Positions 2,424-20,935 of a stretch of 64,000 nt of DNA are shown in pieces. Both the position numbers and the translations under genes were made by a program. This DNA comes from Planctomycetia bacterium (GTDB taxonomy: Bacteria > Planctomycetota > Planctomycetia > Pirellulales > UBA1268). Position 1 is the stretch's first letter. Each line of letters begins with the position of its first letter. A model generated the notes under the pieces. It ran no database searches and was not told where the DNA came from. It was given only the letters and a program-made list of their open reading frames with translations. Location: positions 62,001-126,000 of the forward strand of contig JAPLNR010000054.1 of the NCBI GenBank assembly GCA_026401035.1, given 5' to 3'.

Positions 2424-3569
2424 ATGGGGCGTTTCGGAGCTACCGAACTAGGGCGGCAGGGCGTGCTGGCTGCCGCCGCGGTGATCGCGTTGCTGGTCAC
2501 GGGCGAGGCTGTCGCTGACGAGGCAGGGGTGCCGACGGAGGCGAGCGTGCCCGCCTTCATACCCGGGGAGGCCCGCGCGGCAGAACTCCCGGCCGACGCC
2601 TGCATGGAGGAACTCCGCCGCTGCTGCTCATGCTGCCCGGGCTGGAGCCACTACGCGATCTTCGACGTCTTGTTCCTGCAGCGGAATGCCCAGATCGGCA
2701 ACGCGCCGCTGGCCTTCAACGCCGACACCAATCTGCCGGTGATGACCGCGCAGGACCTGCAGCCGGGCATCGGCACCGGCTTCCGGCTGTTCTACGGCCG
2801 GTTCATCAACGACAGCATGGGCTGGGAGGTGGGCTACACCGGCATCTACGGGATGTTCGGCGACGCGACGGTGAACGGGCCCGATAACCTCGAACTGCCG
2901 CCGCCGTTGGGCCTGGCCGTCAACAACTTCAACGACGCCGAGCAGGTCCGCGGCACCTATGCCTCGACGCTCAACATCGCGGAAGCCAACGTCTTCTGTT
3001 ACGACTGCTGCGAGGAGTGCGGGCCCAACTGGTGCGGTCTGACCCGCTGCCGCCGCAACTGCCACTGCATCGACTGGCTGGCCGGCTTCGTCTGGGCGGG
3101 CCTCGACGAGACGGCGAATCTCGAGGTCCTCTGCTGCTCCCCGCCGGAGCCTGCCAACTACACGGTGCGGACGAGCACCAACTACTTCGGCGCCCAAGTC
3201 GGCATGCGGGGCCGCCGGCAGTGGGACCGCTGGGCGGTCGAGGGCTGGTGGAAGACGGCCCTGTGCGGCACCTCGGCCTACCAGTCGGCCGACCCGATCG
3301 TGGGCACGATCTCAGGCGAGGAGCGGCCCGCCGAGTCGGCCAATGCCGCCGGCGTAGGCTTCATTGGCGGGCTCAATGGCACGCTCATCTACCGGCTCAC
3401 TAAGCGCTGGGGCCTGCGGGCCGGCTACAACCTCTACTGGCTCACCGGCGCCGCCCTGGCCCCGACCCAGTGGGACTTCGCTACCGCTGCCGGGGCCGGC
3501 ACCGGCATCAACGACAACGGCGGGCTGTTTCTCCACGGTGCCAATCTGGGCACAGAGTATCGGTGGTAG
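2424..3569 (+). CDS. BBP7-like outer-membrane beta-barrel protein
   Basis: A predicted outer-membrane barrel of 381 residues. A signal sequence covers about residues 1-32 (hydrophobic LAAAAVIALLVTG, then an Ala cleavage region). Next comes a short Cys cluster (RRCCSCCPG), then alternating aromatic and polar strands such as GTGFRLFYGRFI and MGWEVGYTGIYGMFG, with the chain ending in YRW as barrels often do. A second Cys-rich patch (CYDCCEECGPNWCGLTRC) around residues 193-216 is typical of this planctomycete group. The start is supported by AGGAGGTG seven bases upstream. It stands alone between a ThuA scar and the giant repeat gene. The ligand is unknown. A second barrel without the Cys clusters is at 59874-60728. 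Confidence 0.75.
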   Translation: MGRFGATELGRQGVLAAAAVIALLVTGEAVADEAGVPTEASVPAFIPGEARAAELPADACMEELRRCCSCCPGWSHYAIFDVLFLQRNAQIGNAPLAFNADTNLPVMTAQDLQPGIGTGFRLFYGRFINDSMGWEVGYTGIYGMFGDATVNGPDNLELPPPLGLAVNNFNDAEQVRGTYASTLNIAEANVFCYDCCEECGPNWCGLTRCRRNCHCIDWLAGFVWAGLDETANLEVLCCSPPEPANYTVRTSTNYFGAQVGMRGRRQWDRWAVEGWWKTALCGTSAYQSADPIVGTISGEERPAESANAAGVGFIGGLNGTLIYRLTKRWGLRAGYNLYWLTGAALAPTQWDFATAAGAGTGINDNGGLFLHGANLGTEYRW

Positions 3570-3780: not shown

Positions 3781-6700
3781 TTACCGTCGCAGGATCGCGA
3801 CCCGCAGCGGCGGGTAGGCGACGGTGGACTGCGGCAATAGCCGACCGCCGGCGCCCGAGGTCGAACTGTTTCGTCGCACCCCGTTGGTGCGGCCGAACTC
3901 ACCCTCGACCGTAAAGATTTCCGCCTCGCTGACCGCGGCCGCGAAGATCGCCGCTCGGCCACCGCCAAAGGCGCGGAAGGCCGCTTCGCGGGTGCGGGAC
4001 AGGCCGCTGTAGGTCTCGACCAGGCCGCCGGCGCCGCTGCCCGCCGCCACGAGGATCTTGTCGGCCGCGCCCGTGCTCGACGGCAGTCGTGAGACCGACA
4101 CGCCGCGGGCGTAGCCCGGGGCGATCGCTCGGAATTCGTTGATCGTCACCGGCGGGTTCGGCCGGCCGTTGAAGACCTTGACGGTGGCCGGCATGCCCGG
4201 GCCGCTGCCCACGACGAGTTCCGTGATGCCGTCGGGGTTGGGCGAGGTCCGCGAGCGGCCCGCGAAGGTGCCCAGGTCGGCCGTGGCCACGCTCACGCCG
4301 CCGCGGAAGGCGGCCCCGAAGGGCTGCAGTTGTCGGATCGGCGAACCGGCCACCGGTGTCGCGGCGCCGGGGGTCACGTCAAACACGCGGACCGTGCCGC
4401 CGCGGCTCTGCCCCACGACGATCTGGGTCGTGCCGGCGGCCGTCACGCTGCCCGCGGCGATCTCCAGGCCGCCGGTGTACCCGGGGCCGAAGGGGAAGAA
4501 GTTGTATTGGGGCAGCGGCACGCCCGTCTCGCTGAACACCCGCACCTGAGCCGGCCGGCCGGGGCCGGGCGCGGTTAGGATTTCAGGGATCCCGTCGCCG
4601 GTCACGTCGGCGCCGTAGACGCGGACGCCGCCGCGGAATCGCGGCTCGTAGGCGAAGAAGGGGATGATCCGGTCGGCGCCCGTGTCGGGGTCGATCACGC
4701 GGACGAACGGGCCGCTGATGCAGCCGATGTCGGTGCCCACGATCACGCCGCTCGCCTGCACATCCACGTCCACCGAGTCGGTGTTGTTGGAGGGATCGGG
4801 ATCGTACTCGCGGCCCGACACCGTCGCGGTGTTCGTCTCCGTGCCGCCGGTGCGACGGATCACCTTGGCGGTGATCGAGAGCGTCGGCGTGTCAGCGGTC
4901 GTCACGGTGCCCACGGTCCAGACACCGGTGCCTGCGACGTAGGCACCCTGACTGGCCGAGGCCGACACGAACTCCAGGCCGCTCGGCAACGGGTCGTTGA
5001 CGGTGACCAGGGTCGCCGTGTCGGGGCCGTAGTTGGCCACCACGATCTGGAACGTGACGAGTTCCCCGATCGACGGCTCCGCCTCATCGACCGTCTTGAA
5101 CACGGCCAGGTCGGCCGACCGGGGCGTGAGCGTGGACTGGTCGGTGTTGTTGTCGGGATTCGGATCGGGCGTGGTGCTCGTGGCCGTGGCGGTGTTGGTC
5201 AACGCCTGGGCGGGCCCTGACGAGGGGGCCCGCACCGTGGCGACGACCAGCAGCGTGTTCGTGGTCGCCGCGGGCACTGAGCCGAGCGTCCAGACGCCGG
5301 AGCCAGCACTGTACGAGCCGGCCGACGGGGTGGCGGAAACGAACTGCAGCCCGGCCGGCAGGAGGTCGGTCACCGCCACGCTCTGGGCCGTGCTCGGACC
5401 GACGTTCTCGAGCGTGATGGTGAAGGTCACGTTGTCGCCCACGTTGGGCGCCGTGTTGTTGACCGTCTTGGAGACAATCAGGTCGGCCTGCTGCGGGTCG
5501 GTCGGCGTCCGCGCCGTGTTGTTGCGGTTGTTGGGATCCCAGACGTCGCTGAAGGTGATCGTGGCGGTGTTGAAAGCCACGCTCGTGTTGACCGCCTCGA
5601 CCGTGAGCGTGAGCACGAAGGTCTGGCCCGGGGCGATCGAGGGCACGCTCCAGACGCCGCCGGTGGGCGACTCCTCGAACCGCGTGCCGGGGGCGGGCGT
5701 GGCCGAAAGGAAGGAGACGTTGGCCGGCAGGGCGTCGGTCACCTCGACGTTGGTGGCCACGGCCGTGCCCAGGTTAAACAGGCTCACGGTGTAGGTGACC
5801 GTTTCGCCCACATTGGGTCGGACGTTGCTCGTGGTTTTCTTGACGCCAAGATCGGCGTAGAGCGGCGTCTCCGTGGCGGTGCCGGTGTTGTTGCCCGGAT
5901 TGGGGTCGTACTCGTCGGCCTTCGTGACGGTGGCGACGTTCGTCCGCGCCGGCGGGATCGTGTTCACGGCCGGGGCGAGCACCCGCGCGGTGATCACGAG
6001 CGTCTCGGTGTTCGCGGAGCCCACGTCCACCGTGCCGACCGTCCAGACGCCCGTGCCGGTGTTGAACGTGCCCTGGCTGGGTACGGCTGAGAGGAGTTGC
6101 AGGCCCGCCACCGGGAAGGAGTCGGTGATCTGGACGTTGTTGGCCGAGTCGGGCCCGAGGTTCGAGACCGTGACGGTGAACGTGATCGTGTCGCCCACGT
6201 TCGGGTTCGGGTCGCTGACGGTCTTGGCGACGGCGAGGTCGGCCTCCCGCGTCGAGATCGTGGACTCTCCGCTGTCATTCGTGTGGTCGGGGTCGAACTG
6301 GTTGGTCGTGGAGACGGCGGCGACGTTTGTGAACGAGCCCGGCCCGGGGACGGCCACGACGATCGCCAGCGTCTTCTCGCCGCCGGCCGGGATCGTGCCG
6401 ACCTGCCAGACGCCGGTGGCGGGCGAATAGTTCGTGCCCGCCGAGGGGCTCGCCGACACGAACGTCAGGCCGCTCGGCAGCGGGTCGGCGATCGTGACGC
6501 CGGTGGCCTCATCGATGCCGAGGTTTCGCAGCGTGATGGTGAACGTGACCTGCCCGCCGACGTTCGGATTGGGATTGCTGACGACCTTCTCGACCGCGAG
6601 ATCCGCATACTGCGGCGTCTCGGTGACGCTGTCGGTGTTGTTCGACGGATCCGGGTCGTACTGGTCGCTCGTGTTGACGCTCGCCGTGTTGGTCGAAGGC

Positions 6701-9700
6701 TGGGGCACGCCCGAGACCGGCGGCAGCACGAGCGCGTCGATCTGGAGCGTGCGGGCGAAGAGCGTGTCGACCGTGCCCACGGTCCAGATGCCGGTGCCAG
6801 GGTCGTAGGTGCCCTCGTTGGCCGTCGCATCCACGAACTGCAAACCCGCCGGTAGCTGGTCGAGCACGGTCACGTTCGTGGCCGTGTCAGCCCCGAGATT
6901 CGAGAGCGTGATCGTGAAGGTGATGGTGTCGCCGACGTTGGGCGTGGCGTCGCTCACCACCTTGGTGACGGCCAGGTCGGCGTACTGGGGCGTCTCGGTA
7001 ACGCTATCGGTGTTGTTGGAGGGATCGGGGTCGTACTCGCGGCCCGAGACGGTCGCGGTGTTCGTGACCGGCTGCGGGATGCCGGGGGACGTGGGGGCAG
7101 TCACCGTTGCGGTGACCGTGAGCGTCGCGGAGCCGCCAGCGGCGACCTCGCCGACGGTCCAGACGCCCCCGGCGTAGGTGCCCGTTGAGGTCGAAGCCGA
7201 GACGAACGTCAAGCCAGCGGGCAGGATGTCGTTGACGACCACCTGTGTGGCGGCGTCGGGGCCGAAGTTGTCCCCCTCGATGGTGAAGGTGATCGTGTCG
7301 CCCACGTTGGGATTCGGATCGTCCACGACCTTGAACACGGCTAGGTCGGCCTGCAGCGGGGTCACCGTCTTGTCGTCGGTGTTGTTGTCGGGGTTCGGAT
7401 CGGGCGTGGTCGAGGTGGCGGTCGCGGTGTTGGTTCGCGCCGGGGCGAGGCCAGACGACGGCGCGGTCACGTTCGCCACGACCGTCAGCGTGTTGGTCGT
7501 GTTCGCGGCAACGCTGCCGAGCGTCCAGACACCCGTGCCTGGCACATACGACGGATCCCCGTTGCTCGCCGTATGGCTCACATACGTGAGCCCGGCGGGG
7601 AGCAGATCATTCACGACGACGTTCTGTGAGGCGCTCGGCCCCAGATTGTTCAGCGTGACCGTGAAGGTGACGTTGTCGCCCACGTTGGGCGTCGAGTCGT
7701 TCACCGTCTTCGAGACGACGAGGTCGGCCTCCTGGGGGTCGGTCGGGGTCTTCGCCGTGTTGTTGCGGTCGTTTGGATCCCAGACGTCGCTGGCCGTAAT
7801 GGCGACCGTGTTGAAGCTCCGGCCCGTGGACGTCGCCGTGGCGACGATCGTCAGCGTGAGCGGATTGGCGATGCCGTTCGTCGTGGGCACGTTCGGGATG
7901 CTCCACACCTTGTTCGTGCTGTCGAACGAGCCGGCCGATGGCGTGGCGCTCACGAACGTCACGTTGGCCGGCAGCGTGTCGGTGACCTCGACGTTGGTGG
8001 CGGCGGATGTGCCGAGGTTGAACAGGCTCACGGTATAGGTGACCGTGTCGCCGACGCCCGGCTGGACGTTGTCCGTCGTCTTCTTGACGCCCAGGTCGGC
8101 ATACTTCGGCGTCTCGGTGGCGGAGCCCGTGTTGTTGCCCGGGTTGGGGTCGGGCTCGGCCGAGTTGGTCACCGTGGCGACGTTCGTCTGCGCGATCGGG
8201 ATCGTGTTGACTGCGGGGGCGAGCACGAGGGCCGTAATCGTGAGCGTCTGGGCGTTCCCGGCCCCGGAGAGCACTGTGCCCACGTCCCACTTGTCACCGG
8301 TGTAGGTGCCCTGGCTGGGCGTCGCCGAGAGCAGTTGGAGCCCCGTCGTCGGGAACTGGTCGGTCACCTCCACCTCGGTCGCCGTGTTGGGGCCGAGGTT
8401 CGAGAGCGTGACGACGAACGTGATCGTGTCGCCGACGTTGGGCGTGGAGTTGCTGACCGTCTTCACGACGGCCAGATCGGCGGTGTTGACCGTGAAGCTG
8501 GCCGATGCGGTCGTGACGTAGTTGTTGAGTTCCCCCAAAGTCTTGGAGCCGGAACCCGTCCGCTCGTACGCATTGGGGTTGTTGGGGGTGATCTGGCCCG
8601 GTTCGCCGGGCAGGCTCGACCACTTAATCTGGTTGGTGTTGGTAATCCGCTGGTTGGCCGTGACCGGACCCGCGAGCGTGCCGCTCACCTTCAGCGTGAT
8701 CGTGCGGGTGGTCGGCTCCTTCGGCAGATCGAAGCCGGTGCCGGTCGTGGTGAGCGTGTTGCCGGAAAGCGCGAAGTTGGCGGCCGTGACGACACCCGAG
8801 GTGTCCACGACGCTCGTGAGCACGGGGCTCGCGATCGACGCGGGGATCACGTCGCGGAGCGTGACACCGAAGGCGTCGGTGTCGCTCGTGCCCGACTGCC
8901 GCACCACGATCGTGTAGGTGACGGGGTCGCCCACGTTGCCACCGAGGCCGCCGACGGCAACCGCCTTCGTAGTCCGGAGCTTGGGCTCGATCACCGTGAC
9001 CGGCCCGGCTTCGACGATCGGCGAGAACGAGGCGAAGTTCCAGCCGGCCTGAGCCTTGTTGACCAGCCACACGCCGCTGGTGTTCGTGTTCACGTTGAGA
9101 ACAACCGTTTCGATCGTGAACGTGATCGTCTCGTCGGTAGCGCTGTCGGTGTCGCTGTTGACGATGTCGCCGAGGTTCCATGTGGCCGTGGTGCCGGAGT
9201 TCGTCAGCACCGGGGCACTGGTGAGCCCCGGCACGGTCAGCTTCGCGGGATCGTCGTTGATCGCCGTGATCGTCCGGACATAGGCCATGCCCGATCCCAT
9301 GGCGTCGATGAGCTGAGCCGCTGGTGTGCGGCCCTGCGGGATCTTCATCGTGACGGTGTAGGTGGCCTTTTCGCCGATCACGGCCTGCGTGGCCGAATTC
9401 GACGCGTTCACGATCGACGTCGTGACGAGTTCCTTGGTGACCGTGGGGATGGCGACCGTCACGATCGCCGAGTCGCTCGACTTGTAGTTGTTGAGCTGGC
9501 CCTGGCTCGTCGATTCGGAACCCGTCCGCTCGTAGGCGTTTGGATTGTTGGGTGTGATCTGGCCGGGGTTGCCCGGCAGGCTCGTCCATTGCTCGGTCAC
9601 CGTGTTCGTGATCGCTTGGCCCGCGATTACGGTCGGATCGAGCCTCGCGCGGAACGTGAGCGTGCTCGTCTGGCCGGGTGTGAGTTGCGTGTAGGTGGCC

Positions 9701-12700
9701 GTGAACGAGGTGCCGCCGCCCGCGGTGGCCAGCGTCGTCGGCGCGATGCCGGCGATGTGGACGAGCGAGCCGGCGACGTAGGTGATGCCGCCGGGGAAGA
9801 TGTCGGACAGGGCGACGTTGTGGGCCGTGGTCTGACTGGCCGTGACCAGAATGGTGAACGTCACCAAATCGCTCGCCTGGGCCGTCGTCGGTGTCACCGA
9901 CTTGTCGATCGTGAGCTTGGGCTCGATCACCGTCACCGTGCCCGACTGAGCGGCCGGCAGGTTGGTGTGGCCCGTCCAGGTGAGCTTGGCACTGTTCGTG
10001 AGGGTCTTGCCCGCGACGTTGCTCGAGACGTTGAGCACCACCGCCTCGTAGCGGAACGTGATCCCCTGCTGCGCCGTGCCGGCGTTGGCGTTGGTCACGT
10101 CGCCGAGGCTGAACGTGAGCGTGCGGCCGCTGTTGGTCACCGCCGGGGCAGCCGAACCGGTGAAGGTCACCCCCGGATCGACGACCGGCGTGCCCACCAT
10201 CCGCACGAAGGCCAGGCCGGTCGGCAGCGAGTCGACGACCACGGCCGACGGCGTCGTACCCCGCGGGAAATCCACGGTCAGCTCGAACGTGGCGAGCTCG
10301 CCGATCACTCCCTGCGTGTTGGAGTTGAACGAGTCGACGATCGACGTGCTGACGAGCGACTTCGTCACGGTGGGTGACTGCACCGTCACGGTCGCGTCGT
10401 CGGTCAGGCCACCCGGCACGAAGTTGGGGCCGCCCTCGGTGGAGGCGTAGGCGGTGAGCGTGGCCGTGTTAGGGATCACGTCGTTCGGCACGACCGTCGG
10501 CAAGAGCTCGAGGTCGTATGTGATGATCGCAATGTTGGCGCCGGTGTTGATGACCGTGCCGCCGGTCGTCTTGCCGGGGTCGAGAGCGCCGGTCGAGGCC
10601 GAAGGATCGACGAGCGTGATCCCGGAGCCGAACAAATCGCCGGTGAATGGCAGGGTCGCCCCTGTGCCGTCGGTCACCTGGAGGTTGATCCCCGTGGTGT
10701 TGGTCGGAATCCGCATCCGGGTGGCGTCGAAGGCGTCGCGGACGGCCACGTCGAAGGCCCCCTTGACGCCGCTGCCGGTGTTTTCCACCACGATCGTAAA
10801 CTTGACAAGGTCGCTACCGAGCACGTTCGAGAGGTTTGAGTTGATCGGCTGACTGGCCAGGCCGCCCGAGCTGACCGTGCCGGTGAACGCCGCCCCGGGC
10901 TGACCGGGCGGCGAGAACGTGACGCCCGCGGGAGCGACCGTCGGCGGCGTAAACACGCCCGCTGAATTACTCGTCGAGACGACCCCCTTCGTGATTCCAA
11001 GCAGCGGCTCGGAGATCTGCACCTGGGCCAGTGCCGTGTTGCTCGTCAGCACGTTGCCCGTCTCGTTGCGCTCGCTCTGCTCGGCCTGATTGGTGAGCAG
11101 CAGGCCGTCGGCGAAGGGGCGGTTGGTGGCGGTGACGGTGAACAGGATGTCGGTGACGGCCGACCGGTCGAGGCTGTCCTGGAACGTGCCGAAGCTCCAC
11201 GTCTCGCTGTTGGCGGCGGCGCTGAAGGAGTTTGTCGGCGTGATCCCTGAGATCGTGCTGTAGGTGTCGGTCGGTCCGTAGCTCCAACGCCCGGCCGCCG
11301 GCACCGTCCCGCTGGGACTGCCGCCGGCAAACGTGAGGCTTTGCGCTGTGAAGATCGGCAGCGGCAGGAAGTCGGTGATCTGGTAGTCCTTGATGCTCGA
11401 AAACGGCAGGTTGTAGGTGATCCGGAACGTGACGGCATCACCGGCGGTGACGACGGGCGTGCCGGAGGCGGGGACGCCGTTGATCGCGAAGACGCTCTTC
11501 GCGGCCTGGCCGCTGACGAGCGTGAACGACTGCGAGCTGCCGTCGGAGACCGTGCTCGCCGTTGGGGCGAGATTCGCAAAGGCGAGCACGTCGGCCGTGG
11601 TCGTGGCGATGTCGGTCATCACGTCGCCCTGGACGACGTCGGCTCCCGGCCGGGGCGTCTGCCGGTATTGGTCGAGCACCCGTGCGCGGAACTTGATCGT
11701 GCCGCGTGTGCCCGGGCCGGAGGGGAGCGGGTCAGGCAGCGGCCCCCCCGTGCCGCCGGGCGGGATCGCGGCGCCGAGCAGGTCGCCGTCGGCGCTGCTG
11801 CGGAGGGCGGCAAGCTGGCTCGACACGTCAAACACCACGTCGGTCGTGCCGTTTCCCGGATCGTTCACCGTGACGGTCACGTTCGCCGGCGCAAACGGAG
11901 CGGCCGTATACGACTCAGACTGCTGGGTGTAGGTGAGCGTCGGCGTGAAGGTGGCGTCGAACTCCTGGCCGTCGGAGATCACGTCGGTGATGTCGAAGTT
12001 GTCGAGCGCGAAAAAGTCGCTGACCTGGAAGTTGAGCGTGTACTCGATCAGGTCGCCGGCCCGCGGCGAGCCGGGGTTGGTCAGGTCCGCATAGCTCTTT
12101 TGCAGGGCGACGGTGCGGACCGTGAGCGTGTGCTGGGCGTTGGCGTCGTCGGGGTCGCTCGCGATCGTCTGGGGACCGGGGTAGTTGGGGTTGGGGCTCG
12201 TCCAGGTGCCGGTGGCATTGGCAACGTTCGTGGCGATCGCCGTGCCACCGGTGCCCAGCGGGATCACGTCCAGGCCGGCAGCATCGTCCTGGGGCACGAA
12301 GTACGAGAATGTCATCACCACGTCGGAATCGCTGCCGGTGCCGAGCACCTGGTTGAACTGCCGGGTGAGCGTGCCGCCGGGCACTGTCGTGCTCGGCGTG
12401 GCGACCGGGGTGACCGTGGTGGCGCCGTTGCCCGTTGCAGTGACGAGCGACACGAACTGCACGTTGCCGGGCAGGACGTCGGCGAGCTGGAGATTCGTAA
12501 CCGTCTGGCCCGGCGCCACGGCCATGCTCACCGTGTAGGTGTGTTGGAAGTTGGGGCCCGTCGCCGTCTCGGCCTCGGGGGCGCTCGAGGTCTTCTTGAT
12601 CCGGAAGAGCTGCGGCTCGACAGGGTCGGTGGTCGTCGCACCGATCGTCGCGACGTTCACCGTGGGATTGCCGGCCGTGTCGGTCTGGTATTGAAACCCG

Positions 12701-13281
12701 CCGGTGGCGGTCACGGGATACGAGCTGCTGGGCTGGGCGAGCGGGCTGACGACGCCGACGAAGTCGATCTCGGCTGCGGGTTGCTCCGGGCCGTAGCTGC
12801 CAAAGGGGAGTTGCACGACCACGAGCTGGTCGCCCGGCTTGCCGGTGACCACGAGCGACGTGCCGTCGGGGTTCTTGGCGAAGGGATGCGTCGCCTGCCC
12901 CTGAGCATTGAAGGTGAGCACGGTCGTGGCGAGCGACAGGCCGTTGTACGTGGCGCTGCCGGGCTTGAACGAGATGCCGTCGAACGGCGTCGGCGGTGCG
13001 TCACCCGTGGCGGGCATCACGATGTCCACGAACGGCGAGTAGCCGATGTCGGCGGGGTTGGTCGCCGTGTTGTCGAACGTAACGGTGAGCGGGATCTCCT
13101 GGCCGATCAGGGCGCTGAGATCGGGCCCGTTGATCGTGGCCGTTGGAACCGCGGCCAACGCGAGCCGGTGCTCGAGCCGCTCGGCCTGGAGGCGGCGCCG
13201 CGCCGTCGCCGGGGAACGCCGCTGGGGGCCGGCGGCCGCCCGCCTCGAACCGAACACGCTGAGTCGTCTGATCACCGTCAT
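3781..13281 (-). CDS. Giant secreted DUF11-repeat protein with LEPR-XLL-like N-terminus and FG-GAP-like C-terminus
   Basis: A 3166-residue extracellular protein. The start at 13281 (MTVIRRLSVFGS) was chosen because GAGG sits seven bases upstream; the frame stays open further 5' without a better site. Residues about 25-40 (RLQAERLEHRLALAA) resemble the LEPR-XLL motif of planctomycete surface proteins. Residues about 40-1600 hold varied DUF11-like beta-sandwich units. About 1600-2840 hold ten tandem DUF11 repeats of roughly 124 residues, each opening with ADLxVxKxVxxxxPNVG and closing with DPNPxNNT. The last 325 residues carry FG-GAP/VCBS-like segments (ADVTGDGIPEILTAPGPG). Such proteins are usually taken as adhesins or S-layer-like stalks. 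Repeats 1-4 and 7-10 are pairwise most similar. There is no C-terminal membrane anchor. Domain calls are solid; the role is inferred. Confidence 0.88.
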   Translation of the reverse strand: MTVIRRLSVFGSRRAAAGPQRRSPATARRRLQAERLEHRLALAAVPTATINGPDLSALIGQEIPLTVTFDNTATNPADIGYSPFVDIVMPATGDAPPTPFDGISFKPGSATYNGLSLATTVLTFNAQGQATHPFAKNPDGTSLVVTGKPGDQLVVVQLPFGSYGPEQPAAEIDFVGVVSPLAQPSSSYPVTATGGFQYQTDTAGNPTVNVATIGATTTDPVEPQLFRIKKTSSAPEAETATGPNFQHTYTVSMAVAPGQTVTNLQLADVLPGNVQFVSLVTATGNGATTVTPVATPSTTVPGGTLTRQFNQVLGTGSDSDVVMTFSYFVPQDDAAGLDVIPLGTGGTAIATNVANATGTWTSPNPNYPGPQTIASDPDDANAQHTLTVRTVALQKSYADLTNPGSPRAGDLIEYTLNFQVSDFFALDNFDITDVISDGQEFDATFTPTLTYTQQSESYTAAPFAPANVTVTVNDPGNGTTDVVFDVSSQLAALRSSADGDLLGAAIPPGGTGGPLPDPLPSGPGTRGTIKFRARVLDQYRQTPRPGADVVQGDVMTDIATTTADVLAFANLAPTASTVSDGSSQSFTLVSGQAAKSVFAINGVPASGTPVVTAGDAVTFRITYNLPFSSIKDYQITDFLPLPIFTAQSLTFAGGSPSGTVPAAGRWSYGPTDTYSTISGITPTNSFSAAANSETWSFGTFQDSLDRSAVTDILFTVTATNRPFADGLLLTNQAEQSERNETGNVLTSNTALAQVQISEPLLGITKGVVSTSNSAGVFTPPTVAPAGVTFSPPGQPGAAFTGTVSSGGLASQPINSNLSNVLGSDLVKFTIVVENTGSGVKGAFDVAVRDAFDATRMRIPTNTTGINLQVTDGTGATLPFTGDLFGSGITLVDPSASTGALDPGKTTGGTVINTGANIAIITYDLELLPTVVPNDVIPNTATLTAYASTEGGPNFVPGGLTDDATVTVQSPTVTKSLVSTSIVDSFNSNTQGVIGELATFELTVDFPRGTTPSAVVVDSLPTGLAFVRMVGTPVVDPGVTFTGSAAPAVTNSGRTLTFSLGDVTNANAGTAQQGITFRYEAVVLNVSSNVAGKTLTNSAKLTWTGHTNLPAAQSGTVTVIEPKLTIDKSVTPTTAQASDLVTFTILVTASQTTAHNVALSDIFPGGITYVAGSLVHIAGIAPTTLATAGGGTSFTATYTQLTPGQTSTLTFRARLDPTVIAGQAITNTVTEQWTSLPGNPGQITPNNPNAYERTGSESTSQGQLNNYKSSDSAIVTVAIPTVTKELVTTSIVNASNSATQAVIGEKATYTVTMKIPQGRTPAAQLIDAMGSGMAYVRTITAINDDPAKLTVPGLTSAPVLTNSGTTATWNLGDIVNSDTDSATDETITFTIETVVLNVNTNTSGVWLVNKAQAGWNFASFSPIVEAGPVTVIEPKLRTTKAVAVGGLGGNVGDPVTYTIVVRQSGTSDTDAFGVTLRDVIPASIASPVLTSVVDTSGVVTAANFALSGNTLTTTGTGFDLPKEPTTRTITLKVSGTLAGPVTANQRITNTNQIKWSSLPGEPGQITPNNPNAYERTGSGSKTLGELNNYVTTASASFTVNTADLAVVKTVSNSTPNVGDTITFVVTLSNLGPNTATEVEVTDQFPTTGLQLLSATPSQGTYTGDKWDVGTVLSGAGNAQTLTITALVLAPAVNTIPIAQTNVATVTNSAEPDPNPGNNTGSATETPKYADLGVKKTTDNVQPGVGDTVTYTVSLFNLGTSAATNVEVTDTLPANVTFVSATPSAGSFDSTNKVWSIPNVPTTNGIANPLTLTIVATATSTGRSFNTVAITASDVWDPNDRNNTAKTPTDPQEADLVVSKTVNDSTPNVGDNVTFTVTLNNLGPSASQNVVVNDLLPAGLTYVSHTASNGDPSYVPGTGVWTLGSVAANTTNTLTVVANVTAPSSGLAPARTNTATATSTTPDPNPDNNTDDKTVTPLQADLAVFKVVDDPNPNVGDTITFTIEGDNFGPDAATQVVVNDILPAGLTFVSASTSTGTYAGGVWTVGEVAAGGSATLTVTATVTAPTSPGIPQPVTNTATVSGREYDPDPSNNTDSVTETPQYADLAVTKVVSDATPNVGDTITFTITLSNLGADTATNVTVLDQLPAGLQFVDATANEGTYDPGTGIWTVGTVDTLFARTLQIDALVLPPVSGVPQPSTNTASVNTSDQYDPDPSNNTDSVTETPQYADLAVEKVVSNPNPNVGGQVTFTITLRNLGIDEATGVTIADPLPSGLTFVSASPSAGTNYSPATGVWQVGTIPAGGEKTLAIVVAVPGPGSFTNVAAVSTTNQFDPDHTNDSGESTISTREADLAVAKTVSDPNPNVGDTITFTVTVSNLGPDSANNVQITDSFPVAGLQLLSAVPSQGTFNTGTGVWTVGTVDVGSANTETLVITARVLAPAVNTIPPARTNVATVTKADEYDPNPGNNTGTATETPLYADLGVKKTTSNVRPNVGETVTYTVSLFNLGTAVATNVEVTDALPANVSFLSATPAPGTRFEESPTGGVWSVPSIAPGQTFVLTLTVEAVNTSVAFNTATITFSDVWDPNNRNNTARTPTDPQQADLIVSKTVNNTAPNVGDNVTFTITLENVGPSTAQSVAVTDLLPAGLQFVSATPSAGSYSAGSGVWTLGSVPAATTNTLLVVATVRAPSSGPAQALTNTATATSTTPDPNPDNNTDQSTLTPRSADLAVFKTVDEAEPSIGELVTFQIVVANYGPDTATLVTVNDPLPSGLEFVSASASQGAYVAGTGVWTVGTVTTADTPTLSITAKVIRRTGGTETNTATVSGREYDPDPSNNTDSVDVDVQASGVIVGTDIGCISGPFVRVIDPDTGADRIIPFFAYEPRFRGGVRVYGADVTGDGIPEILTAPGPGRPAQVRVFSETGVPLPQYNFFPFGPGYTGGLEIAAGSVTAAGTTQIVVGQSRGGTVRVFDVTPGAATPVAGSPIRQLQPFGAAFRGGVSVATADLGTFAGRSRTSPNPDGITELVVGSGPGMPATVKVFNGRPNPPVTINEFRAIAPGYARGVSVSRLPSSTGAADKILVAAGSGAGGLVETYSGLSRTREAAFRAFGGGRAAIFAAAVSEAEIFTVEGEFGRTNGVRRNSSTSGAGGRLLPQSTVAYPPLRVAILRR

Positions 13282-13532
13282 AGTTCCTCGCATGAAACCA
13301 GGCACCGGATCCCGAGACCCAGGCCGCTCTTCCATCGGCCGGATCGTCCGCCGATCGTGCAGGACAGCCTCGCCAGACTGTCCGAGCGACACGACCGGTA
13401 CGATCCAACCTCTCTGGCAGGCTACCCTGCGGAGCCCGCACCCGCAACGAGCGGGCGGCCCTGGAAATTCAGGCCAGGATCGCCGTCACGGGCCGGGCCG
13501 GCTCGACGCCGGTGCCGCTCCCCTGGCCCATC

Positions 13533-13665
13533 GGCGTCCGGCTGGTCGAAGCCAACCTTCCGCGCGACAAACGTGGCAGTAACTTCGGCCCGCACGCAAA
13601 CCCCCGCCGCCGTTCCCGTGTCGCAGTCCATCCCCGATGGCAGATCGACGACAGAGCCGCCAGAC
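13533..13665 (-). pseudogene. nnrE: Remnant of NAD(P)H-hydrate epimerase (YjeF N-terminal domain)
   Basis: The minus strand reads [13 protein letters not shown], then [20 protein letters not shown], which is the C-terminal signature of the YjeF_N/NnrE family (DLPSGLDCDTG and TFVARKxGF). Nothing before it fits the domain core, and past GFDQPDA the frame becomes unlike the family. A one-base shift leads to a plausible short tail ending near 13469. It is a broken piece, not a gene. The remainder of the 608-bp space 13282-13889 contains only the start region of the giant gene and the leader of the next sulfotransferase; nothing else was recognised. Confidence 0.65.
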
Positions 13666-13889
13666 CGGCGGAGGTTTGGGCAGACTGCGTCGCCCAGCAG
13701 GTCGCGAGGCATGCCAAATCGACCAGGCCCCTTCACCAGACCGGGACGCTGCGGCCTGTAACGATCATTGAAGTTTCGCGGATAGAACTGTCGATTCCGA
13801 ATGGAGAACCTGATTTGGTTGAGAGGATTCCAGGCCCGCATCCACAGGGCGTGGATAGTCTCGGGGATCCGCGATTGTGGAGACTTGCC

Positions 13890-14631: not shown

Positions 14632-15522
14632 TTATAAGAACACGCCCTGCCCGGGATCATTGCGACTCACTTCCGGCAGGCGGATGCCTCGGTCCTGCGA
14701 CTGAAAACCAGCGACGATGAGTCCGTCACCGCTGTACGATTCGGCCACGCTATGCTCGGCGAGAATGGTGCCGCCACAGAACTCCAATTCCCGGATGCAG
14801 TCGGCGTGCGTGGTCGCCGACCCACTGATGGCCGCGTCGTGGGTGGACACCACGACAAACCGCACGAGTCCCGCCTCGACGGCCCGTGGCATCGAACGGA
14901 TGAAGGGCAGTTCGGCACCCTGAACATCCATGTGGAGCACCTCGATCGGCGATGAATCGATACGGTCAAGCAAGGCATCCATGTCGAGACACTCAAGCCC
15001 CGGCGCACCTGGGTTGCGCGCTTCTCCCACCAGAGCGTTTATGAACTCCGCCGTGTGGCCGTTCAACACGATGTTGCGACGGCCGACTTCCAGATTGCTT
15101 GCATTCGGTTCGACACAAACCGCCCGTGAGCCGGGAACGGCGCCGAGGTACCAATTGGTGTAGTAGGCCCAGAAGCAGCCGAGTTCGACAACGAGCGTGC
15201 CCGGGCGGACATGCCCGAGCAGGTAGTGAAAGAGCAATTCCTCCTGCGGCTCGTGGTGCCCGCGCAGGCTGCGGATCACCTCGATCATCCAGTCGCCGTG
15301 GTACCCGCCGGCCATCACCCTCGAGCCGTCGTGCATGATCTGCACCCGCCCGTCCGGAATCTCCACAACCTGGCCCGCGTTCGGCACCTTCGGCACCGCG
15401 TCGGCGTCGCGGCACGACACGGTCAACTGCACCCGTTGCCGCACGGCTGACAGGACGTCAACGACGGGCCCCGGGCCAGCCGCCGCACGCGTTCTGCCGC
15501 ACCCACTGGAAATACCTCGCAT
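14632..15522 (-). CDS. FkbM family SAM-dependent methyltransferase
   Basis: 296 residues. The SAM-binding Rossmann start is VVELGCFWAYYTNWYL, followed by the acidic strand end AVCVEPNASN and the late FkbM motif EVLHMDVQGAELPFIRSM. FkbM proteins methylate hydroxyl groups, often on sugars of surface polysaccharides. It starts one base after the stop of the upstream methyltransferase (TGACATG), so the two are probably translated together. It is the last gene of the minus-strand glycan operon. The N-terminal 75 residues before the fold are variable, so a later start is possible. Confidence 0.82.
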   Translation of the reverse strand: MRGISSGCGRTRAAAGPGPVVDVLSAVRQRVQLTVSCRDADAVPKVPNAGQVVEIPDGRVQIMHDGSRVMAGGYHGDWMIEVIRSLRGHHEPQEELLFHYLLGHVRPGTLVVELGCFWAYYTNWYLGAVPGSRAVCVEPNASNLEVGRRNIVLNGHTAEFINALVGEARNPGAPGLECLDMDALLDRIDSSPIEVLHMDVQGAELPFIRSMPRAVEAGLVRFVVVSTHDAAISGSATTHADCIRELEFCGGTILAEHSVAESYSGDGLIVAGFQSQDRGIRLPEVSRNDPGQGVFL

Positions 15523-15523
15523 G

Positions 15524-16501
15524 TCACTTCTCCGCGGTCGATGCTGCCGAGCCCTTCCGCATGATCAGACCGATGGAGGTCGATGCATACCCGAACAGGT
15601 CGAGCCGGAGGTGCCGATCCTGCGTATAGGGTGGCGGGTCGATATGCCGGTCTAGCTCCGTGTTTCCGGTGGCAAGATCGAGGGGCTCCACGGCGTGCCC
15701 GCGTGACCGGAGGAGCGCGATGATCCGCTCGATATCCTTGAGCCTGAAGATCACGCAACCGCCGTCCGTCACTGTCGCGTCGTTTGAGGAGAGATTGAAC
15801 TCCGTCGTGTGCACCGCCACGCCGCCGGGCTTCAGGCACCGCATCTGCTCCTCGAGGAACCGGAGCCCCAGGTCGATGCTCCCGCAATGCTCGAAGGAGC
15901 ACGTCGACCAAGTGAAGTCAAAGCCGGTGAGGTCAGCCGGAATCTGGTTCATGTCCACGGGCCGGTAGGTGACGTTGTCACGAAACGTCTGCTTTGGACA
16001 AAGGCTGGCGTGGTTGAGTGACGCGAGGTTGCCGACCCACTGTCCGGTCTTGGCCCACTGCTGGTTGCGTTCGTCCTCGACCGGAAGATCGGTCGCCGTG
16101 ATCAGGCAGCCTCGGGCCGCGAAGAAGGCCGGCAGTTTTTCCGCGCCCACGGCAAAGCCCAATCCCCTGCGACCCGGTTGCAGCATGCCCCGTTCTTCAA
16201 GCGCCTCGCAGATGTAGGCCAGTTCCCAGAGTTTGCGGTGGGCACGCCAGGGCTCCTGGATGGCAGCCGCCCAGTGGCGAAACCGCGGGCTGTCGAGTTG
16301 ATCGAAGGTGCAGAGGCTCGACACCGTTCCCTGTTCAGGCCCCTGTTCAGGCGTCTTACCCAGAAGTATGGTGGGATCAGCCTTCACAAACCGGTCGACC
16401 TCGATGCGGGCGGCAGACGGCCGCGCTGGTTTTTTCCCGCGGCGCGAGGGCCGGCCCCCCCAGGCTGTGATCGATCCCAGCAGTTCGCGTACCCGTACCA
16501 T
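15524..16501 (-). CDS. Class I SAM-dependent methyltransferase
   Basis: 325 residues. The fold is seen as GLGFAVGAEKLPAFFAARG (SAM loop), the acidic ATDLP strand, FTWSTCSFEHCG, and CLKPGGVAVHTTEF (the post-motif of methyltransf_11-type enzymes). The C-terminus HLRLDLFGYASTSIGLIM is nearly repeated in a fragment at 20331-20460, showing that a relative once stood upstream. A small in-frame tandem (PEQGPEQG) lies near residue 53. It sits within the glycan operon between a GT4 gene and an FkbM gene, so the likely substrate is a sugar or nucleotide sugar; that is inference. Confidence 0.78.
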   Translation of the reverse strand: MVRVRELLGSITAWGGRPSRRGKKPARPSAARIEVDRFVKADPTILLGKTPEQGPEQGTVSSLCTFDQLDSPRFRHWAAAIQEPWRAHRKLWELAYICEALEERGMLQPGRRGLGFAVGAEKLPAFFAARGCLITATDLPVEDERNQQWAKTGQWVGNLASLNHASLCPKQTFRDNVTYRPVDMNQIPADLTGFDFTWSTCSFEHCGSIDLGLRFLEEQMRCLKPGGVAVHTTEFNLSSNDATVTDGGCVIFRLKDIERIIALLRSRGHAVEPLDLATGNTELDRHIDPPPYTQDRHLRLDLFGYASTSIGLIMRKGSAASTAEK

Positions 16502-16585
16502 GATCGTTTCTCTCGTGTCTTGCTACCGGTCGCTATTGGTAAGGCGAACGTTTTGTCAGCCTGAAAAAGTGCCCGGTGTTTTGGT

Positions 16586-17938
16586 CTACGCCGCCACGCG
16601 GCCGGACTCCTGCCGCTGGGCGTTCACGTCAGGTGAGGCCAGCGCGATCGCCATGAGTTGATCCACCGCCTGCCGCCACGTCGGCGATTGAAAATCCCCC
16701 TCCGGCTTCACGGCCTGAAAAATTCCTTCCCGCTCGAACCGGATGATTTTTTCCGCAAGTGCGCCAGCATCGGTGGGTGGGAAGTAGACGCACCACGGCC
16801 CCCCCACCTCGCGGTGGGCGGGAATGTCGGAGGCGAACACTCGCAGCTCGTGCGCCAGCGCCTCGACGATTGGCAGGCCATAGCCTTCGGCCAGCGACGG
16901 AAACACCAGCCCGCGTGCCTGGCCGTAGGCGTAGAGCAGTTCGCCGTCGGACAGGTCGACAAAGTGCATGAGGTGCGTGCCGTATCGAGGATGCTGCCGC
17001 ATTCGGCGCACGACCTCATCCCCTTTCCAGCCGACGAAACCAGCCACCAGCAAACGGGCCTCGGGCACCTGCTGCCAGACCCGTTCGAAGACATCCATCA
17101 GCAGGTCCTGATTCTTACGGGGCTCGAGTGTTCCCACGGTGAGATAGGGACCGCCTGGCCCAGCGGCGATGAATGCGGCCAGTTCGGGCCTGGGCGCCTC
17201 GACCTTCATCGCTGGCTCGACATCAGCCCCGAGCCGAAATGACTGCACAAGCGGGCGGGCACGCTCCGGCTCCCGGCCCAGCCGCCGCAGTTCCTCACGG
17301 GCTTCGACGGCGACGGCCTCAGAGATGGCCGCCACGAAATCGACCCGCGTGAGCGTGTTGGTCATCCAATCGCGGAATGTGGCGGGGAGCCGTTTCGGCA
17401 TGAGTTCCGGATGCGTGTGCGGAATGAAGTCGTATTGCACGACCCCGAGTCGGGTTCCGGCAGCCCTGGCTTCATCGACAGCGTGCCAGCAACGACTCGT
17501 CCAGGATGAATCCGCAAGCAGGAGCGAATCGCCAGGCTGAAACTCGATTCGCTCACCCGAATGCGTGCTTCGAAACAGTTTCCGCCACTGCGTGCGGACC
17601 GCCCGCATGATCGTTCTGGGCACGAGCAACTTGTGGAGGCGGTGGAGCAGTGGATGGCACGGCGGCGCGGCGCGCGTGGACACATCGATAAGATCGCCGG
17701 TCGAGGCCATGCCGAGAGCGACAAACCGGTCTTCTGCGAACCGCACGGGCACGAGCACCGCGCCGTGGGCGGCAGCCGCCGCGGCACCATGCCGGGCGAT
17801 GTTTCGCACCACCCGCGGAATGCCGGCCTGCCTGGGCGTGCTGATCGTCTGCGTGCAGTCGAGAAACACCCTCCCCCCGCCGTGCTTCCGCTCGCCGGTG
17901 TGCGCTGCTGCCCCACCAGCCATGCAGAGTGTGCTCAT
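16586..17938 (-). CDS. GT4 family glycosyltransferase
   Basis: 450 residues with a GT-B fold. The acceptor domain is N-terminal. The donor domain begins near GGPYLTVGTLEPRKNQDLLM, and the retaining-GT EX7E-type motif is SLAEGYGLPIVEALAHE (about residues 370-390), followed by ASDIPAHREVGGP. The start is the ATG at 17938, which overlaps the stop of the preceding GT4 gene as ATGA with GGGGG just upstream; an earlier in-frame start would run deep into that gene. Overlap implies translational coupling. It probably adds a hexose to a lipid-linked surface glycan. Donor sugar cannot be read from sequence. Confidence 0.87.
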   Translation of the reverse strand: MSTLCMAGGAAAHTGERKHGGGRVFLDCTQTISTPRQAGIPRVVRNIARHGAAAAAAHGAVLVPVRFAEDRFVALGMASTGDLIDVSTRAAPPCHPLLHRLHKLLVPRTIMRAVRTQWRKLFRSTHSGERIEFQPGDSLLLADSSWTSRCWHAVDEARAAGTRLGVVQYDFIPHTHPELMPKRLPATFRDWMTNTLTRVDFVAAISEAVAVEAREELRRLGREPERARPLVQSFRLGADVEPAMKVEAPRPELAAFIAAGPGGPYLTVGTLEPRKNQDLLMDVFERVWQQVPEARLLVAGFVGWKGDEVVRRMRQHPRYGTHLMHFVDLSDGELLYAYGQARGLVFPSLAEGYGLPIVEALAHELRVFASDIPAHREVGGPWCVYFPPTDAGALAEKIIRFEREGIFQAVKPEGDFQSPTWRQAVDQLMAIALASPDVNAQRQESGRVAA

Positions 17939-19482
17939 GCCGCCCCCAAGGTTCTGGTCGATTCGTTGTGCTGCCGCACTGCGTCGGCTTCTTGCCCGCT
18001 CCGAGGCGACGCTCCTGGGCGGGCCCGGCCAGCCGGTGCGTTGATGGCCGCCAGCACCTGGGCTGCCGTGTCGCGCCACGCGGTCGGGCGGAATTCCGTC
18101 CGGATCGTTTCCTCGCGGTGCTGCACCCAGGCCGGGTCATCCAGCACGCGTTCCACGAGCGTTACGAGCCCGTGAACATCAAAGGGATCGAAAAACTCAG
18201 GCAGATCGCTGCTGATCTCCGGAATGCTCGTGGCGTTCGACGCCAGGCACATCCGGCCGTGTCCCAGGCTTTCCGCGACAGGCAAACCCCAGCCTTCATA
18301 CTTGGACGGATAGATGGTGGCCTGGCAATGCTTGTAATACCAATCCAGTTCGCTGTCCTCGATGCCATGCAGCACGTGGATGTGGCGGTTGACGGTGCGA
18401 TCCTGGCGGATCTCACGGAGCAGGTCGGCAACGTAGAGATGGGGGGTGCCGATGCAGACCAGATCGGGGCAGCCCTCACCCCGCTGGGCCGCGAGATGCG
18501 TCCAGACATCGTAGAGCAGCCGGTGATTCTTGCGGACGTCGAGTGTCGAGACGCAGACGAAGAACGGCCGCGTCGGAACGAACCGCGGCAACGCTGCGGG
18601 CGTCGCCGCTGCAGCGCCATCGCCCAGCACATCCCCCAGCCGGACGACCGTCAGCGGGGGTGTCTCAAAGCGGCACTCCTCGCAATAGCGTTCGATCTCC
18701 TGCCGGGAGAATTCTGAAATCGTCAATACGCGGTCGGATTCACGGAGCACGCTGCGAACCCATGCCGTAATGGACTTCGTATGGACCGGCTCCAGCCATT
18801 GCGGCTTGATGGTCGGAATCAGGTCATAGATCATCCATACCACGTTCACGCCCCGACTGCGGGCCCGGGCTGCGGCTTCTGCGCAGCCTGGCAGGCACCA
18901 TGTGGCGCCGATCGACATGAGGACATCGCCGGGTGCGGCGAACGCCGCCACGTCCGGAGTTGTCAACGCAGCCATTCCATGCGGGGCCACTCCCCGCATG
19001 TGTGACGGCGGAGCCAGCGGCTGGCCCGGGCGAGCCGCCCGCCGCAGTCGCCGCTTCGCCCAGTGCCCGATGCTTTTTCGCAGCTGCCGTGCAGCGGTCT
19101 TGAACTGCCGAAACGCGCTTCGTAGCTCCTCGGTTTCGCCAGCACCGCTGAAGAAAAAGCTTTTCTTGAACAGCTTCAGCTTGCGGCGACCGGGCCGCGC
19201 CGCGGCCTTCGCCGCCGGAAGCGGTCCAGAACGTGCCGACTCGGCCGACGACTTGACCGACTCGACAGCAGCGAATCCGCGGAGATGGCACCGCACGGCC
19301 GCGGGCAATTCGGACTCGCCCATGGTGGAAAATCGGCCAGCCTTCGCATCGTACCGCACCAATCGCACCGCTGCACCGGCGGCGATGAGACCGTTGAGAA
19401 TGCCGACGGTGGTCCTCTGAATGCCGGTAAGGTGCGGGAGCTTCCACCCCACCAGGTCGGAGACGTCGTACCAGATCTTCAC
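17935..19482 (-). CDS. GT4 family glycosyltransferase
   Basis: 515 residues, GTG start with AAAGGGA seven bases upstream. The N-terminus (MKIWYDVSDLVGWKLPHLTG) resembles mannosyltransferase-like GT4 proteins. A basic linker of about 60 residues (residues 90-160) is inserted in the acceptor domain. The donor domain has PFFVCVSTLDVRKNHRLLYD, then the EX7E-type motif SKYEGWGLPVAESLGHG and TSIPEI. It is the first of the coupled pair with the GT4 gene downstream (ATGA overlap). It belongs to the glycan operon bordered by sulfotransferases. Confidence 0.87.
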   Translation of the reverse strand: MKIWYDVSDLVGWKLPHLTGIQRTTVGILNGLIAAGAAVRLVRYDAKAGRFSTMGESELPAAVRCHLRGFAAVESVKSSAESARSGPLPAAKAAARPGRRKLKLFKKSFFFSGAGETEELRSAFRQFKTAARQLRKSIGHWAKRRLRRAARPGQPLAPPSHMRGVAPHGMAALTTPDVAAFAAPGDVLMSIGATWCLPGCAEAAARARSRGVNVVWMIYDLIPTIKPQWLEPVHTKSITAWVRSVLRESDRVLTISEFSRQEIERYCEECRFETPPLTVVRLGDVLGDGAAAATPAALPRFVPTRPFFVCVSTLDVRKNHRLLYDVWTHLAAQRGEGCPDLVCIGTPHLYVADLLREIRQDRTVNRHIHVLHGIEDSELDWYYKHCQATIYPSKYEGWGLPVAESLGHGRMCLASNATSIPEISSDLPEFFDPFDVHGLVTLVERVLDDPAWVQHREETIRTEFRPTAWRDTAAQVLAAINAPAGRARPGASPRSGQEADAVRQHNESTRTLGAA

Positions 19483-19539
19483 GGTGATCCCTTTCTGCTT
19501 CGAAAGACTGAATGTGCTCGAGCGGCCACGTGCCTCTGA

Positions 19540-20271
19540 CTAGGCCGCGGCAGGGGTCGCCAGGTAATGCCCCTTCACGAGTTTGAATCCATCGGTGATG
19601 TTCGCGGGATACGAGAGCGGGGCCCGCAGCGAGGGCTCCTCGCGGCGGTAGTAGTAGCGGTTCAAACCATCGAACAGGCCAAATTCGTAGCCGTGCTCGA
19701 AGAGGAGCCCCTCCCATTCGAACCAGGTCGGCTCATAGGAGTAAATGTCGCAGCCGGGCAGCTTCGCCTTGATCGCCTCGAGCAAAATCACTCGCGGCCG
19801 GAAGGCCCGCCACTCACCGCCGAGCAGCACGTCCCGCTCGGCGCCTTCGACATCGATCTTGAGAAACTGCACGTCCTGGCCATCCAACTGGCTGGTGACG
19901 TCGGCGAGGGTGATCATGTTGACGGAATAGGTCTTCTTCGCAAGGCCAAAGCCCGCCAAACTCTTGGCGTCCATCGTATCGCGATACGTCGACAGGCCTG
20001 AGTCGCCCCATTCGCTGAACTCGACCGACCCACGCTCGGTACCGAGCACGACGTTGAGGTTCCAGTCGCGGGGCCGTTGTTGTTCAAATTTCTCATAGAA
20101 CCGCACGACTGGCTCAACATTCACGCCCGACCAGCCCTTGTCGTAGAAGTACTTCGTGACCGAGTCGACCACGGGGTCGTAGCCGCCGACGTCGATGTAG
20201 CGGCCGTTCTTCACGTCGTGAAACACTCGGTTGAGGACAACATCCTCGAAGTTCTGAGCGTACGAAATCAT
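19540..20271 (-). CDS. FkbM family methyltransferase
   Basis: 243 residues. Begins MISYAQNFEDVVLNRVF, the standard opening of this subfamily, which decides the start at 20271 (GGAG is 12 bases upstream). Motifs in order: GRYIDVGGYDPVVDSVT (SAM loop), GVNVEPV, VQFLKIDVEGAERDVLLG. It is distinct from the FkbM protein at 14632. Its likely role is O-methylation of a sugar in the same surface polysaccharide. A 57-bp gap separates it from the GT4 gene downstream on the same strand. Family is firm; substrate is inferred. Confidence 0.86.
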   Translation of the reverse strand: MISYAQNFEDVVLNRVFHDVKNGRYIDVGGYDPVVDSVTKYFYDKGWSGVNVEPVVRFYEKFEQQRPRDWNLNVVLGTERGSVEFSEWGDSGLSTYRDTMDAKSLAGFGLAKKTYSVNMITLADVTSQLDGQDVQFLKIDVEGAERDVLLGGEWRAFRPRVILLEAIKAKLPGCDIYSYEPTWFEWEGLLFEHGYEFGLFDGLNRYYYRREEPSLRAPLSYPANITDGFKLVKGHYLATPAAA

Positions 20272-20330
20272 CGCGTTGGCTTCTCCAGAGTCAGAAATAT
20301 TCGAACGAGTGGTCAATCTTCGCGGTGCCG

Positions 20331-20935
<605 letters not shown>

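Follow-up and report, generated by a model that had tools for sequence, protein, structure and literature searches.

The giant gene of the window analysed here, a stretch of 64,000 nucleotides from a Planctomycetia bacterium, carries ten contiguous DUF11 repeats in the order ABCDEFABCD. We consider it probable that this ten-domain CLIPPER stalk arose by an old block duplication, that its repeat number has since been fixed, and that variation has come largely from in-register recombination between lineages. The array would form the stalk of a giant fibrillar-adhesin-like protein, a row of ten Ig-like DUF11 (CLIPPER) domains preceded by isopeptide-type domains in an N-terminal block and followed by an all-beta domain at the C-terminus. 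Each stalk domain bears the Lys-Asp/Glu-Asn residues that an internal isopeptide bond requires. The order ABCDEFABCD would go back to the duplication of a multi-domain block; in the relatives examined the number would then have stayed at ten, while homologous recombination between lineages replaced single repeats or runs of repeats in register. The components are ordinary and the evolutionary mode is unusual. Among open-access titles and abstract openings on DUF11/CLIPPER domains, periscope proteins and planctomycete giant genes, we found no published account of this array or of such in-register exchange.

Table 1. Features of the window and the basis of their assignment. A minus-strand feature begins at its higher coordinate.
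Feature	Position	Strand	Basis and remarks
BBP7-like outer-membrane beta-barrel gene	2424..3569	+	Pfam BBP7 (PF07585), E 1.3e-4, 21.7 bits
Giant gene	3781..13392	-	Mechanical ORF, 3203 aa; likely start Met at 13281
C-terminal all-beta domain, conserved, perhaps propeller-like (low confidence)	3784..4749	-	Sub-cut-off FG-GAP_3, alignment, model
DUF11 repeat R10, class D	4750..5115	-	Profile match, repeat trees
DUF11 repeat R9, class C	5116..5487	-	Profile match, repeat trees; modelled jointly with R8
DUF11 repeat R8, class B	5488..5856	-	Profile match, repeat trees; modelled jointly with R9
DUF11 repeat R7, class A	5857..6243	-	Profile match, repeat trees
DUF11 repeat R6, class F, without partner	6244..6606	-	Profile match, repeat trees
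DUF11 repeat R5, class E, without partner	6607..6981	-	Profile match, repeat trees
DUF11 repeat R4, class D	6982..7350	-	Profile match, repeat trees
DUF11 repeat R3, class C	7351..7728	-	Profile match, repeat trees
DUF11 repeat R2, class B	7729..8100	-	Profile match, repeat trees
DUF11 repeat R1, class A	8101..8481	-	Profile match, repeat trees
N6, second copy of N4	8482..8982	-	Global alignment, DNA repeats
N5, second copy of N3	8983..9450	-	Global alignment, DNA repeats
N4	9451..9942	-	Pairs with N6 (46%); DNA repeats; hand-set boundaries
N3, isopeptide-type domain (TIGR04226 best stretch aa 1006-1138)	9943..10377	-	Pairs with N5 (45%); hand-set boundaries
Conserved N-terminal region (about aa 60-630)	11503..13215	-	Orthologue probe
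Methyltransferase (FkbM and other) and glycosyltransferase genes	14632..20475	-	Between giant gene and shared flank

Translation of the giant gene probably starts at Met38 of the reading frame, and the alignment of orthologues to the protein begins at about residue 49. The whole protein scores 1040.9 bits against Pfam DUF11 (PF01345), and each of the ten places in the array scores 97.8-129.8 bits against a cut-off of 24.6. The repeats measure 121-129 residues, the end of the tenth having been placed by hand. One extra DUF11 match (41.6 bits, above the Pfam cut-off) lies upstream at about 9592-9915, outside the contiguous array. NCBIfam adds matches to the DUF11 repeat TIGR01451 and to the isopeptide-forming family TIGR04226, the latter matching best toward the N-terminus. 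In self-BLAST searches, the N- and C-terminal parts of the protein gave the full-length self match only, and plus-strand ORFs across the gene were taken for antisense frames. The window had no match in the plasmid collection, and a tRNA search of it found none.

Relatives were sought with the N-terminal region, so that the array itself would not bias their choice, and this probe matched 17 of 72 genomes of the family at E<=1e-30; from a scan of genome contigs, the best 80 of 245 confirmed loci were retained. Eight of the 17 arrays are cut by contig ends and were not counted (G073, G003, G002, G023, G093, G018, G083 and G034, with G073, G018 and G083 judged cut off from match coordinates; G093 shows five repeats before the contig end, the last incomplete). 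The nine complete arrays belong to the window's genome and to G014, G086, G078, G059, G022, G005, G085 and G017. All nine contain exactly ten strong repeats, the eight outside the window being counted above a score of 40 bits with a profile derived from 40 repeats that came from four of these genomes; weaker DUF11-like stretches upstream of the array fall below this threshold and were left out.

A sequence-only reading of this DNA had described ten tandem repeats in which repeats 1-4 and 7-10 correspond at a constant offset of about 2.24 kb, and our computation agrees with it closely. The end coordinate that it gave for the gene, 13281, coincides with Met38, all eight repeat starts that it named lie within 5 bases of the computed ones, the offsets are 2238 (R1-R7), 2244 (R2-R8), 2241 (R3-R9) and 2235 bases (R4-R10), and the motifs that it cited are present, ADLGVKKTT in R2 and R8 and APAVNTIP in R1 and R7. 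The reading had made the duplication depend on these pairs grouping in a tree of the ten repeats, and all four do so, with the following support (SH-aLRT/UFBoot, protein and codon tree, respectively): R1+R7, 97.1/91 and 98.8/94; R2+R8, 100/100 and 100/100; R3+R9, 98.5/99 and 98.7/98; R4+R10, 95.8/88 and 96.5/95. Mean protein identity in the window reaches 68.9% between repeats six positions apart (lag 6; 61-73% for individual pairs) against 44.0-51.3% at the eight other lags, and among 100,000 shuffles of the repeat order this value was reached by 39 at lag 6 and by 84 at any lag from 1 to 7. At the DNA level, the lag-6 pairs are 74-80% identical over stretches of 181-300 bases, and R4 and R10 share a 64-base stretch that is 92% identical.

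The same periodicity recurs across the family. Lag 6 gives the highest mean of nine lags in all nine genomes, 58.6-69.3% in eight of them and only slightly the highest value in G017 (44.7% versus 34.9-41.8% at the other lags). Trees of 40 and of 90 repeats group the sequences by position class and not by genome, namely A (R1, R7), B (R2, R8), C (R3, R9), D (R4, R10), E (R5) and F (R6), with the G017 repeats weakly placed in parts of the 90-repeat tree (bootstrap 47 for R1, 76 for R7). Reciprocal best pairs were found for 1-7 in eight of the nine genomes, for 2-8 in nine and for 3-9 in seven, R2-R8 being the only such pair in G017. For 4-10 there were none in the nine genomes, and by plain protein identity R4 of the window is closer to R5 (63.9%) than to R10 (61.3%), so that the R4-R10 pair rests on the trees. 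Among five distant relatives from other phyla with 9-11 repeats (L065, L068, L091, L100 and L081), lag 6 was highest in none. The acidobacterial members of this set (L065, L068 and L091) have arrays of about ten DUF11 repeats with the highest identity at lags other than 6. Elsewhere, L058 (44.1%) and L061 (52.9%) peak at lag 3 and L081 (51.7%) at lag 4, perhaps reflecting other block duplications; these three are recorded as Chloroflexi or Anaerolineaceae. Lag 1 is highest in L076 and L085.

The sequence-only reading had gone further and proposed that six repeats were copied as one unit. The six-repeat offset stands; the six-repeat unit does not follow from it, since R5 and R6 have no partners. 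With a partner at only four of six positions, a six-repeat unit is one of several possible histories: duplication of a six-repeat block with subsequent loss of two repeats and copying of a four-repeat block past R5-R6 fit equally well.

The duplication is old. Identity at fourfold degenerate sites in the window is 0.58 for lag-6 pairs, 0.53 for other lags and 0.41 by chance from composition, and the pooled value for lag-6 pairs ranges from 0.35 to 0.61 across the nine genomes. These sites are thus close to saturated, which rules out a recent duplication, and the likeness of partner repeats is kept mainly by the protein. That several genera have the arrangement says less about its age, since the gene itself apparently moves between them. 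In-register gene conversion within each gene could also have held R1-R4 and R7-R10 alike, in which case the age of the duplication would be unreadable. Two observations are in line with this: R1 and R7 of the window are 72% identical, compared with 51% for R1 of the window and R1 of G017, although G017 too has ten repeats; and in the 40-repeat tree R2 of the window and of G014 lie, with low support, nearer to the R8 repeats than do R2 of G022 and G005. However, recent conversion would have left synonymous sites identical, which the fourfold values of all nine genomes contradict, and the 40-repeat tree keeps R1 and R7 apart as two positional groups. We consider such an account of the pairing unlikely; older conversion between paired repeats could still have taken place.

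Coming back to an old duplication followed by exchange, stretches of the giant gene appear to have passed between lineages with the repeat number unchanged, as judged from segment-wise DNA identity, a sliding profile, the 90-repeat protein tree and approximately unbiased (AU) tests on 20 segments. The window and G059 provide the firmest cases. G059 and G022 belong to the same genus, with 93.5% identity over an rpoB segment (83.0% between the window and G059; 81.7-86.3% for G005), and their flanks agree at 87.7% over 6.9 kb upstream and 86.4% over 2.2 kb downstream of the gene. Within the gene, the DNA identity of R1, R2, R5 and R6 of G059 is nevertheless higher to the window (85-90%) than to G022 (69-78%); R3 is also of the window type, and these five repeats together span 80-90% identity to the window. 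R7, R9 and R10 show 76, 70 and 66% identity to the window versus 84-88% to G022, and the C-terminus 69-81% to the window, with 84-93% on the G022 side for R7, R9, R10 and the C-terminus. R8 is about equidistant (88% window, 86% G022), and the sliding profile locates one switch at the border of R6 and R7, between aa 2365 and 2405. The protein tree places R4 of G059 with G017 (99.8/100), a genome that DNA identity does not single out, R4 being about equally far from all the others (65-73%), and aa 630-1320 of G059 are 56-75% identical to each of the genomes compared, among which there is no donor.

In the window itself, identity over aa 1320-1480 is 93% to G022 and G085 but 75-79% to the five other close relatives. 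The adjoining aa 1480-1637 are 79-81% identical to G022 and G085, with G086 nearest, and aa 1010-1150 are close to both G022 (92.7%) and G086 (90.8%). G014 offers a further candidate. Over R1-R7 it has 74-91% DNA identity with the window, whereas the 90-repeat protein tree places its R8-R10 with G017 (99.7/100, 97.9/99 and 100/100). By DNA only R10 of these three is nearest to G017 (67.2 versus 57-59%), R8 and R9 being 66.7 and 63.7% identical to G017 versus up to 71.0 and 67.2% to others. In AU tests, which set each segment's own best tree, picked on the same data, against the concatenated tree, the concatenated topology was rejected (p<0.05) in 14 of the 20 segments, including six of the ten repeats, and in 3 of 20 after Bonferroni correction. 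The value for G017 in segment 330-630 (about 10% identity) is an alignment artefact, and the branch of G005 in C3040-3203, where it has no usable data, is meaningless. A single history for the whole gene was rejected on the segment identities together with the AU tests. The arrays showing mosaic ancestry all have ten repeats.

Almost all of these sequences come from metagenome-assembled genomes, and several contigs with the giant gene are only 8-16 kb long, so that chimeric assembly or mis-binning can mimic exchange. The mosaic could then be an artefact of short-read assemblies that joined pieces from different species, or of bins containing foreign contigs. G085 may be such a case: its giant gene and the neighbouring gene are close to G022, yet rpoB is only 81.8% identical, so that G085 looks mis-binned or transferred. 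The firmest cases are harder to explain in this manner. The segment of the window at 93% identity to G022 and G085 lies on a 145 kb contig that also holds an RNA polymerase beta-subunit match, and on the 39 kb contig of G059 the gene is flanked on either side by DNA typical of the genus of G059. Moreover, long DNA stretches of repeats in the same gene diverge by about 20% or more, which is too much for an ordinary mix-up of the repeats of one genome. An artefactual origin of the mosaic as a whole therefore seems to us rather improbable, and exchange between lineages is the reading that we retain.

The N-terminal part of the protein is built along similar lines. Between positions 8482 and 10377, two unlike isopeptide-type domains are doubled as abab (N3-N4-N5-N6), with DNA repeats spaced 936 and 966 and identities for N3-N5 and N4-N6 (Table 1) that compare with 19-28% between unlike members in global alignments of the hand-set segments. 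In both cases it seems that a block was doubled rather than a single domain, which leaves unlike domains mostly as neighbours, R4 and R5 (64%) being an exception. The available text of PMC8201768 reports that adjacent domains of large proteins are usually less than 50% identical, and proposes that this limits misfolding; mean identity at lag 1 in the array of the window is 51.3%. The array offers a natural test of whether neighbouring domains should differ in order to fold well. A stronger proposal, which we regard as doubtful, is that selection maintains a positional code of ten non-interchangeable slots, that piecewise exchange across genera generates diversity in an exposed surface, and that the BBP7-like barrel encoded next to it is a dedicated outer-membrane partner. 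If this were true, the placing of the most alike domains mostly far apart (again with R4-R5 as an exception) would limit both misfolding and slippage, the diversified surface would face phages or grazers, and the N-terminal abab block would have been built likewise.

Bacterial stalks made of repeats are often treated as variable in length, and the sequence-only reading had likewise expected the length of this array to vary between strains. The nine complete arrays, from different species of the family, speak against this expectation, and length variation between the species examined was rejected; even G022 and G085, whose genes are only about 3% apart in the tree, both have ten repeats. Selection for a fixed length would be consistent with this constancy. 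Exact DNA runs between paired repeats extend over at most 23 bases in the window and at most 37 across the nine genomes (the unpaired R4 and R5 of G086 share 35 identical bases in a row), and such short matches, together with the near-saturated fourfold sites, leave little homology for slippage. The periscope proteins described in the available text of PMC8201768 resemble the giant protein in being large surface proteins whose stalk consists of folded domains in tandem, and stalks with long, highly similar DNA repeats are described there as length-variable; in them the repeats are near-identical (82-100% for adjacent SHIRT repeats), whereas those of the giant gene have diverged (at most 73% protein identity between any two repeats in the window and 78% at lag 6 in any of the nine genomes), and the array has neither long, highly identical DNA repeats nor, among the nine arrays of different species, any variation in number. 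It is therefore very improbable that the duplication, clear as it is in these tandem stalk domains and marked by the 64-base stretch of R4 and R10, is a snapshot of ongoing gain and loss between near-identical repeats. With fixed number and order in nine genomes of several genera and a reshuffled sequence, the array presents a testable contrast to periscope proteins. The G005 protein (L044, 8266-8715) stops early in the C-terminal domain and has a tail unlike the others, perhaps owing to a frameshift or an assembly error.

According to the available text of PMC12617251, DUF11 is the "CLIPPER" domain, which contains an isopeptide triad and occurs in the stalks of fibrillar adhesins. Our array shares with these stalks a profile score far over the cut-off, the Lys-Asp-Asn residues, a predicted Ig-like fold and the tandem arrangement in a long protein; it differs in that nine genomes of one family keep the order ABCDEFABCD and in the lack of a recognised sorting domain. 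The triad is conserved throughout the 90 repeats of the nine genomes (Lys in 90, Asn in 90, Asp in 81 and Glu in the other 9). The family profile finds the solved DUF11 domain 9IFR (E 5.9e-5), and, read by eye, Lys, Asp and Asn align with the positions of its isopeptide bond, which suggests that a bond may form in each repeat. An AlphaFold2 model of R8-R9 (pLDDT 97.3) contains two domains that are nearly all beta, and the repeats are accordingly predicted to adopt an Ig-like beta-sandwich fold. Foldseek with this model listed integrin alpha chains first and C-terminal domains of streptococcal AgI/II further down, with modest TM-scores by query length (0.27-0.52); 9IFR was absent among the 50 matches listed.

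Large size (3203 aa) and a repetitive stalk (ten repeats) also agree with the description of fibrillar adhesins in the available text of PMC9210967, and the array is most likely a covalently stiffened stalk of a giant protein of this kind. The protein is probably surface-exposed, export being suggested by its family. An N-terminal LExR-like stretch, without a Pfam match, resembles planctomycete export signals. Searches of Pfam and NCBIfam, from which planctomycete anchors may be absent, recognised neither a cell-surface anchor nor an adhesive domain that could be told apart from the Ig-like repeats; the families found were mostly Ig-like and overlapped DUF11, CARDB among them. Matches in the N-terminal block recall the isopeptide domains of RrgB and Gram-positive pilins (TIGR04226, PF16569). 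However, no sorting signal was found with Pfam or NCBIfam, so that nothing points to a pilin assembled by sortase. Conservation extends over the C-terminal 322 residues (67-92% in the alignment), with a match to FG-GAP_3 that falls under the cut-off (E 0.089) and a model of low confidence (pLDDT 60.8).

The BBP7-like gene converges with the giant gene and stays below the BBP7 (PF07585) cut-off of 26 bits, which some neighbours of giant genes pass (for example G014:C73 with 43.6 and G097:C485 with 349 bits). Of 16 other close loci, 12 have a relative of it adjoining the giant gene (L032, L033, L035-L042, L070 and L111) and L043 has a weak one, whereas none was found in the flanks of 0.1-3.7 kb available in L031, L034 and L044. 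The 39%-identical relatives L051 and L052 have weak BBP7-like neighbours, with strong BBP7 matches there (G096, G097), and in strain CA13 the related gene is immediately preceded by a BBP7 match, provided that contig C1 of G099 is that record. BBP7 matches were absent from two of 15 genomes searched (G095 and G101). A partnership between the BBP7-like barrel and the giant protein is plausible from this neighbourhood, and makes the barrel a candidate partner for a giant planctomycete protein. The plus-strand ORF at 13512-14606 was considered as a second BBP7 copy in the window and rejected on comparison. Elsewhere in the window's genome, a second DUF11 ORF (C2:68667-68987) is followed 1.5 kb on by a BBP7 match. 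The methyltransferase and glycosyltransferase genes separate the giant gene of the window from the shared flank at 23.5-26.2 kb, unlike in G059, G022 and G003. Five of the loci (L031, L032, L035, L037 and L042) are titled 'Candidatus Kuenenia stuttgartiensis' and match genomes of the window's family, so that these titles look wrong.
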